64,000 nucleotides of DNA from Chryseosolibacter indicum. GTDB taxonomy: Bacteria; Bacteroidota; Bacteroidia; Cytophagales; Cyclobacteriaceae. Positions 1 to 1,795 of this stretch are shown piece after piece (within the stretch, counting starts at the first letter, position 1; each line of letters opens with the position of its first letter). A program made the position numbers and the translations under genes. The stretch lies in assembly GCF_018598585.1 (NCBI RefSeq), contig NZ_JAHESD010000003.1:62001-126000 (forward strand). Direction: 5' to 3'. The notes beneath the pieces were generated by a model. The model saw nothing but the letters and a program-made list of their open reading frames with translations. It searched no databases and was not told the DNA's origin.

Positions 1-1377
<1,377 letters not shown>

Positions 1378-1383
1378 CTATGT

Positions 1384-1439
1384 TGCCCTGTCACAAGGCA
1401 GGTCAATACTGTTTGTTGCCGAACGATGAAAGAATCGTT
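1384..1439 (-). promoter_or_regulatory. Two hairpins between the Cys-rich ORF and metY
   Basis: In the 127-base spacer two stem-loops are visible on the minus strand. One has 6 bp (AACGAT/ATCGTT, 1422-1439) and starts two bases after the stop of the Cys-rich ORF. The other (1384-1400) has a 7-bp stem closed by TGCC/GGCA, and GACC/GGTC can extend it. Neither is followed by a U-run, so they are not obvious terminators. They are placed where ribosome stalling on the upstream cysteine codons could change the folding. That role is inference. Confidence 0.45.
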
Positions 1440-1441
1440 AC

Positions 1442-1597
1442 TTAGCAATCGCAGTTGCAGCAACAACAAGGCATACACATGCACATGTCGTCCTGCTCGC
1501 AGCAGATTTCAGACGGGTTAAAGAATTCAGAAGCGAAAGCACATAAGTCATACAGACCTAGTACTACTGACTCGATTGATTCGATGATTTTTTTCAT
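1442..1597 (-). CDS. 51-residue cysteine-rich peptide under a SAM riboswitch
   Basis: A small ORF from ATG at 1597 to TAA at 1444-1442. The N-terminal half (MKKIIESIESVVLGLYDL) looks like an amphipathic helix. The C-terminal part holds 10 of the 11 cysteines and ends PCCCCNCDC; methionines are interspersed (MCMCMP). I recognise no family. It lies between the S-box riboswitch and metY on one transcript, so it is almost certainly translated from the riboswitch-controlled mRNA. It could be a leader peptide whose Cys codons sense charged tRNA-Cys, or a real metal- or thiol-binding peptide. No signal peptide is seen. Coding status rests on the start position, composition and synteny. Confidence 0.7.
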   Translation of the reverse strand: MKKIIESIESVVLGLYDLCAFASEFFNPSEICCEQDDMCMCMPCCCCNCDC

Positions 1598-1608
1598 TTA
1601 TTAATCGG

Positions 1609-1730
1609 TTTATATATCCTGACCCGGATTTTCCGAGTCAGAGTCAGGATTTAGCACCTTTTCCCGTTCGTGTCGGGAGGGTTGCTAGTGCTTCGCAGAG
1701 CCTGTCTCTCAGCACTTCTTTATAAATCGA
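1609..1730 (-). promoter_or_regulatory. SAM-I (S-box) riboswitch
   Basis: Read on the minus strand, the leader carries the S-box hallmarks. P2 is AGTGCT/AGCACT (1711-1716 with 1687-1692) enclosing GAGAGACAGGCTC. It is followed by AGCAACC, then a P3 stem CCCG/CGGG (1674-1677 with 1663-1666). The nearly invariant GGTGCTAAATCC is at 1658-1647. A P4 hairpin of 8 bp lies at 1639-1621, and a short P1 forms from TTTATA (1726-1721) and TATAAA (1614-1609). P1's 3' strand ends 11 bases before the start codon of the Cys-rich ORF and no U-run terminator is seen, so control of translation initiation is more likely than attenuation. SAM is the expected ligand by class. Confidence 0.9.
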
Positions 1731-1763: not shown

Positions 1764-1795
1764 CAAACGTAGAGCCTGAAAAGATGGTTTCCAAA
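1764..1795 (-). promoter_or_regulatory. Bacteroidota-type promoter of the SAM riboswitch-metY transcript
   Basis: On the minus strand TTTG (1795-1792) is followed after 20 bases by TACGTTTG (1771-1764), a perfect match to the TAnnTTTG -7 element with the expected -33 spacing. Transcription would begin near 1757, just before the riboswitch. Confidence 0.8.

Follow-up and report, generated by a model that had tools for sequence, protein, structure and literature searches.

Two signals are read by one leader RNA in tandem riboswitches and in mgtA with its Pro-codon leader mgtL. The metY leader studied here would resemble these systems in that respect, whereas it places an aptamer and a Cys-codon ORF in series and would read two products of the same pathway. 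Neither the SAM-I riboswitch nor the Cys-run leader peptide is in itself a novel element; the arrangement stands out by joining the two in series.

Contiguous Cys codons before sulfur genes were described for the mycobacterial polycysteine leaderless sORFs (Canestrari et al., 2020, as cited in PMC9031893, PMC9094748, and PMC13236596). The sORFs were proposed to read the cysteine supply via ribosome speed, and later papers describe their output as translational (PMC13236596). The present locus likewise has a short ORF with contiguous Cys codons before a sulfur gene. However, the mycobacterial sORFs are leaderless, whereas the ORF examined here precedes metY in a different phylum and sits in a long 5' leader that contains a SAM aptamer. 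The mRNA of a leaderless gene starts at the start codon of the ORF, and this criterion was not met, with a 122-nt aptamer and a candidate promoter upstream of the ORF. Cys-run leader peptides were also predicted before cys operons in Mycobacterium and other Actinobacteria, for which Rho was suggested as well (PMC1262725). The Cys run near the stop and the lack of a conserved terminator hairpin are shared with the present leader; the differences are the phylum and the absence of any riboswitch described alongside in the available part of that paper. The uORFC-8-2 motif before cysS of Rhodobacterales has tandem Cys codons and was read as a ribosome-mediated attenuator (PMC8632094). According to the sections available, it differs in having two Cys codons, an intrinsic terminator stem with a U run, a cysteinyl-tRNA synthetase gene, and no SAM aptamer. 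Within the phylum of the present organism, leader-peptide attenuation was inferred for amino-acid operons of Flavobacterium psychrophilum (PMC9723704); no cysteine leader or SAM riboswitch is named in the portion of its main text that was available, and a case in the supplements is not excluded. The initial annotation knew of no description of the tandem arrangement, and no report of a SAM riboswitch followed by a Cys leader was recognised among the open-licence papers listed.

Anatomy of the metY leader

The window, i.e., the whole 64,000-nt stretch of Chryseosolibacter indicum DNA that was analysed, has the following features on its minus strand, in the order in which they are read toward metY.

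1792..1795, minus strand: TTTG, candidate upstream promoter element (from the sequence)
1764..1771, minus strand: TACGTTTG, candidate -7 promoter element (from the sequence)
1607..1728, minus strand: SAM-I (S-box) riboswitch aptamer, Rfam RF00162, 67.5 bits against a gathering score of 44.4
1442..1597, minus strand: leader ORF of 51 codons plus stop, ATG start, peptide MKKIIESIESVVLGLYDLCAFASEFFNPSEICCEQDDMCMCMPCCCCNCDC
1445..1504, minus strand: Cys-rich tail of the leader ORF, 10 Cys in the final 20 codons
1422..1439, minus strand: small perfect hairpin AACGAT-TCTTTC-ATCGTT directly 3' of the leader stop (sequence and predicted fold, single sequence only)
1413..1420, minus strand: GGCAACAA, which can pair with the UGUUGUUGC Cys codons (predicted for ribosome-free RNA)
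1368..1412, minus strand: predicted hairpin domain between leader and metY, about -19.5 kcal/mol (fold prediction; a similar domain in the clade alignment)
1..1314, minus strand: metY, O-acetylhomoserine aminocarboxypropyltransferase/cysteine synthase, PF01053 and TIGR01326, running to the window edge

The match of the aptamer to RF00162 was full-length (model positions 1-108 of 108) with a complete core, which bore out the S-box hallmarks that the initial annotation had claimed ahead of metY. The aptamer is a regular member of the family, above the gathering score, and differs in that the nearest downstream start codon opens the leader ORF and not the enzyme gene. The leader ATG was located at +10 from the last aptamer base, leaving 9 nt between aptamer and ORF. 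Four consecutive Cys codons (CCCC) were found at 1457-1468, and the distance from the leader stop to metY was 127 nt. The ATG of metY is at 1314 (-), and its product scored 672 bits against the TIGR01326 cut-off of 495.1. The Cys-rich 51-codon ORF and the metY gene 3' of it had also been claimed beforehand, and both were present as described. The TTTG and TACGTTTG pair ahead of the aptamer is a candidate promoter of the Bacteroidota type.

Among Rfam cis-regulatory matches at the gathering score, the SAM aptamer was the only one in the window leader, and no second known aptamer was found. A second riboswitch after the leader ORF had been suspected from GGCAAC and GGTGAC, and nothing credible was obtained in 1290-1610 up to an E value of 10. 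The leader is not a tandem riboswitch, for which a second aptamer is the criterion. The criteria of uORFC-8-2 were not met either, the gene being metY and the domain at 1368-1412 being followed by CTCGTCATT, with 3 T in 8, and not by an intrinsic terminator.

The genome of Chryseosolibacter indicum has four SAM-I aptamers, and a short Cys-tail ORF came next in three of the four. The two further aptamers of this kind were followed by the peptides MKDTSLSFLFYRPYCWCCC and MENQHFTYQNLSMRSSSMKLCCCCSH, each ending at a stop, and no similarity was seen among the three leader peptides except the Cys tail. The fourth aptamer, before metH, had no Cys-tail ORF. The polycysteine pattern TGYTGYTGYTGY occurred at 69 sites in the same genome. 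By a mechanical rule, 13 of 68 distinct Cys runs (65 loci fetched) were inside short ORFs, and only L264, which is the SAM-I leader L003, was judged leader-like among these 13. The batch of 68 runs did not contain the window's own site, and the run of three in leader L001 was too short for the pattern.

The two other SAM-I and Cys leaders of this genome (loci L049 and L050; contig C98, 38000-62000) were 12 kb apart, with a sulfite-oxidase-type molybdopterin oxidoreductase, a PF03601 membrane protein, and a TauE/SafE-family exporter in their surroundings. The first genes 3' of these leaders encode proteins of 149 aa and 311 aa; Pfam gave no match for the whole 149-aa protein nor for the first 200 aa of the 311-aa protein.

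Recurrence and gene preference

A search of 98 relatives for homologues of the 51-aa peptide gave a best match outside the own genome at E 0.06. The search was redone through SAM-I and metY because the peptide body was not conserved. In total, 110 metY loci were collected: 80 were the best among 594 candidate stretches, and additional genomes supplied 30. Removal of L071 (upstream too short), L154 (start not identified), and two duplicates left 106 for analysis. These loci are phylogenetically non-independent, and a few lie outside Bacteroidota. SAM-I was scored over the 900 nt ahead of metY, for which a covariance model was built in this analysis. A Cys tail was assigned to a short ATG ORF within 750 nt whose last 17 residues included a five-residue stretch with three or more Cys, and this rule was set after the pattern had been seen.

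SAM-I was found upstream of metY in 86 of the 106 loci and a short Cys-tail ORF in 63, against 1.5 expected from 100 dinucleotide-preserving shuffles per region and none of 106 on the antisense strand. Both elements were present in 55 loci, SAM-I only in 31, the Cys ORF only in 8, and neither in 12. It had been proposed that other metY loci be inspected for the pair and that the idea would fall if the ORF or its Cys codons were not conserved there; the inspection found both to recur, and that refutation did not occur. The Cys-tail carriers included Pedobacter, Mucilaginibacter, Pontibacter, Hymenobacter, Thermonema, Psychroflexus, and Saprospiraceae. SAM-I without a Cys tail was seen at metY in Algoriphagus and in most of the Sphingobacterium loci examined. 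Hence, the Cys tail is common and not universal, as 31 of the 86 SAM-I metY loci were without it.

Another start rule gave a Cys ORF at 65 of 106 metY loci and a metY count of 22 among the SAM-I aptamers described below; the figures used here are those of the ATG-only rule. The other rule also flagged L042, L222, L235, and L239, which the ATG-only rule did not count within the leader. The Cys ORFs of L239, which overlaps the aptamer, and of L042 were treated as spurious. Those of L222 (PAPS reductase-like) and L235 (amino-acid permease) look real, although no ATG is present under the reading applied.

In six loci (L068, L088, L089, L102, L111, and L151), the Cys ORF was apart from the aptamer and near metY, with the aptamer 327-543 nt before metY. 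In L068, L088, L102, L111, and L151, a short hairpin of the type ATGCC-N4-GGCAT was seen immediately 3' of the Cys run, either across the stop codon or just ahead of it.

The gene preference was explored with 114 SAM-I aptamers, namely the four of the own genome and 110 from the best-scoring places listed. Thirty of the latter were given automatically and 80 were hand-picked, so they are not a random sample. Gene classes were taken from BLAST clusters and recognition by eye, with Pfam checks on six first genes. The Cys tail was present in 24 of 34 metY leaders, in 1 of 10 for metX, and in 12 of 20 for other genes, and it was absent for metH (0/37), metB-type (0/6), metZ-like (0/2), metK (0/2), and hom-like (0/3) genes. 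Among the 12 others, the gene was PAPS reductase-like in L172 (by Pfam) and L220 (by cluster), a sulfite reductase gene in L238, and an OsmC gene in L213. L174 has a gene for a Na+/H+-antiporter-family protein, and L215 a TonB-receptor-like gene recognised by eye. The remaining six are the own-genome leaders L001 and L003 and the four congeneric loci L209, L210, L228, and L229, where the leader precedes a 78-aa ORF whose function is unknown. These counts indicate that sulfur-entry genes often carry both elements and that the methionine-specific genes sampled carry SAM-I alone. The metB-type enzymes consume cysteine.

Two side observations concern the first genes. In the four congeneric loci, the 78-aa ORF was followed by an apparent intrinsic terminator and then by a gene for an HPP-family membrane protein. 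An OsmC-like gene came first after SAM-I and a Cys leader in L133 and L213 (Pfam OsmC for L213, by eye for L133), and metY was next after it in L133.

The spacing of the leader start codon followed the gene as well. An ATG that opened an ORF of at least eight codons 8-12 nt after the aptamer was present in 32 of 34 metY leaders and in only 1 of 37 metH leaders; the counts were 0 of 6 for metB-type and 5 of 10 for metX leaders. The ATG was exactly at +10 in 26 of the 34 metY leaders. Of the 86 SAM-I metY loci, 67 had an ATG at +7 to +13 that opened eight or more codons, and 19 did not. On the strength of sequence comparison, the anatomy, the recurrence, the reading-frame constraint described below, the gene preference, and the promoter position are taken as established. 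The arrangement was confirmed as real, recurrent, and gene-selective.

All 10 metY leaders without a Cys tail in the sample of 34 kept the ATG at +7 to +11, indicating that the leader ORF has a role without Cys. This observation would fit an ORF that relays the SAM signal only, with the Cys run merely slowing or pausing the ribosome, irrespective of the cysteine supply. That explanation is considered improbable: the enriched residue is the pathway product, and Cys-tail ORFs were also found before 8 metY genes without a detected SAM-I. Four of these eight leaders (L109, L120, L124, and L158) had tails rich in both Met and Cys, e.g., MMQMCMMMCCCM in L124, where Met codons perhaps stand in for the SAM input; the tails of the other four (L097, L104, L146, and L152) were not Met-rich.

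Reading frame and variability of the leader peptide

The relation of the Cys codons to the reading frame was evaluated in 118 SAM-I leaders whose ATG is 7-13 nt past the aptamer, up to a distance of 330 nt from this start codon. Without exception, the 76 runs of at least three TGY codons were in frame with the leader ATG and ahead of its stop. In the 86 collected leaders with Cys ORFs, Cys accounted for 46.5% of the 12 C-terminal residues and for 1.8% of the remainder; the codons were TGT in 327 cases and TGC in 195, and the longest Cys run varied from 2 to 8 with variable spacing. The runs were tied to the frame in otherwise unalike peptides, which suggests reading by the ribosome and not an RNA motif or a peptide function. 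Two sequence criteria of a leader-peptide attenuator were fulfilled, namely a short ORF before the gene with a run of codons for a pathway amino acid near its end, and the placement of that run in frame with the start and ahead of the stop.

Met was also enriched in the tails of the 86 leaders (9.6% of the 12 C-terminal residues, 1.9% elsewhere in the peptide), and it immediately preceded the longest Cys run in 34 of the 86 (e.g., L058, L086, L114, and L136). The tail looks as if it read both sulfur amino acids, Met and Cys. Leader ORFs without a Cys run often ended in RMR (L117, L118, L119, L121, and L150), and RMRM was seen ahead of the Cys run in the Hymenobacter loci L090 and L100.

The initial annotation had offered as an alternative that the peptide itself binds metal or thiols, and it had asked whether the peptide sequence or only the Cys run is conserved. 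Such a peptide would be made when SAM is low. The dense Cys of the tail and the alignable peptide of the one group of four congeneric loci (L209, L210, L228, and L229) are compatible with this function. However, nonsynonymous changes equalled or exceeded synonymous ones in all six pairs of that group (small counts). The number and spacing of Cys varied, the peptide bodies did not align between lineages, and the fixed Cys spacing of a conserved peptide was not found. No match for the leader peptide was obtained in Pfam or NCBIfam. In five close pairs, 29, 30, and 44 changes fell at codon positions 1, 2, and 3 outside the Cys codons (few changes), and identical columns amounted to 29 of 35 for Cys and 125 of 179 for the others (small counts). 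Clear purifying selection on the peptide was not shown by these codon-position counts. What recurs is the Cys tail, and the rest of the peptide cannot be aligned. The functional peptide is highly improbable and is disfavoured relative to attenuation, as the peptide body was unalignable and every TGY run was in the leader frame.

Proposed control and the output step

The promoter position was explored in the 86 SAM-I metY loci. In 51 of them, the motif TTG-N18-24-TAnnTTTG was present in the 110 nt that precede the aptamer, against 1.0 expected from shuffles, and in none of 84 stretches just before metY. The shorter TAnnTTTG was present upstream of the aptamer in 61 of 86 regions (7.5 expected). 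The promoter pair upstream of the aptamer, with none before metY, indicates that the aptamer, the leader ORF, and metY are probably on one transcript.

This transcript, starting upstream of the SAM-I aptamer, would carry in series the aptamer, the leader ORF with its terminal Cys codons, a stretch that is structured and poor in G, and finally metY. Because P1 ends 9 nt before the leader ATG, SAM binding would close P1 and the ribosome-binding region of the leader, and leader translation would stop. At low SAM, the leader would be translated. The ribosome would pass the tail and leave when Cys-tRNA is plentiful, and it would stall on the Cys run when Cys-tRNA is scarce. A ribosome held near the leader end would keep the following RNA from shutting off metY, and the same RNA would shut off the gene if the leader were untranslated or vacated by the ribosome. 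The enzyme that brings sulfide into organic sulfur would be fully made only with SAM and cysteine both short. The fixed spacing of the ATG after the aptamer suggests that SAM, via P1, controls leader initiation and that leader translation relays the signal to metY, which remains an inference. SAM binding, leader translation, stalling, and the whole output step are inferred, with no binding, expression, or ribosome data.

The region between the leader stop and the gene had a median length of 128 nt (86 leaders with Cys ORFs). For 77 of 80 leaders, C was more frequent than G in this region (C 24.8%, G 14.9%); for the ORF body, this held in 70 of 80. The composition upstream of the aptamer was 17.5% C and 16.2% G, C exceeded G in 35 of 55 in the upstream interval of the rut-like test described below, and the values for 32 metH leaders were 18.0% and 16.7%. 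The stop-to-gene RNA folded better than shuffles (mean z -1.34, SEM 0.16), and the ORF body did not (mean z 0.23). A T-rich tract after the best hairpin was found in only 11 of 80 leaders. Hence, intrinsic termination before metY is not general.

A classical 1:2/3:4 attenuator common to the set was rejected as a general feature by duplex energy and by the longest perfect complementarity against shuffles. The Cys codons showed no general pairing with the downstream RNA (duplex z -0.45 vs -0.54 for a control stretch). In the clade of the window, CAACA of the GGCAACAA segment was invariant in 7 aligned sequences, and the complementarity between Cys codons and downstream RNA was weak (mean z 0.99, SEM 0.31, 9 leaders); it was absent elsewhere (mean z 0.18, SEM 0.14, 72 leaders). 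The attenuation logic that had been proposed by analogy with the trp and his leaders stands as regards the recurrent Cys tail and its in-frame runs, but it does not extend to a terminator/antiterminator pair across the set. The arrangement is attenuator-like in logic and not of the classical trp/his type.

A shut-off of the Rho type is favoured by the C excess between leader stop and gene, by the rarity of T-rich tracts after the best hairpin, and by the rho gene encoded in the Chryseosolibacter indicum genome. Rut-like windows under a stricter test were found in 26 of 80 stretches before the gene, in 4 of 55 upstream of the aptamer, and in 1 of 80 on the antisense strand; they were also found in 57 of 80 gene starts. 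The window locus itself had no rut-like window, and its leader ORF contains 31 C and 35 G. Premature Rho-type transcription termination in the G-poor leader is the leading guess for the shut-off. It is named only as the likelier of two outputs because the rut-like test was negative in the window and the pairing statistics were weak or null.

The main alternative is translational control of metY, in which the same two inputs act and the state of the ribosome on the leader opens or closes a structure at metY initiation without premature termination. Cysteine genes of M. smegmatis are regulated by translation attenuation according to the available part of PMC13236596. The lack of a general intrinsic terminator and the structure above shuffles between leader and gene also speak for such an output. 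However, for each of the three ribosome states that were modelled, most of the metY start region of the window was predicted to be unpaired (0.70, 0.75, and 0.74), and the low G of the leader would not be needed. This alternative is regarded as unlikely, although it cannot be neglected. Control in which SAM gates translation of the leader ORF and Cys-tRNA gates the passage of the ribosome through the tail, with a metY output that is likeliest of the Rho type, is considered fairly probable from the comparison of the loci.

Comparison between loci supports the two-input reading well, with no experimental data behind it. In its wider form, SAM-I at the sulfur-entry genes of Bacteroidota would act not on the enzyme gene but in series on a leader ORF that reads Cys-tRNA, forming a NOT-SAM AND NOT-cysteine gate at sulfide entry. 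Met-tRNA would perhaps be read too, given the Met-enriched tail, and methionine-only genes would have the SAM sensor alone. This wider reading could equally prove right or wrong. Its rating was lowered slightly in view of the six loci where aptamer and Cys ORF are separated and of the 31 metY loci that have SAM-I but no Cys tail; the proposed SAM gate is inapplicable to those six loci, as their Cys ORF is far from the aptamer.

If true, the arrangement would be a widespread natural two-input RNA gate in which a metabolite aptamer is joined to a codon-reading leader ORF. It would account for the ORF at fixed spacing in the SAM-I leaders of metY and would allow a prediction, gene by gene, of whether SAM is sensed alone or together with cysteine. 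Furthermore, many unannotated small ORFs would be added to genomes.
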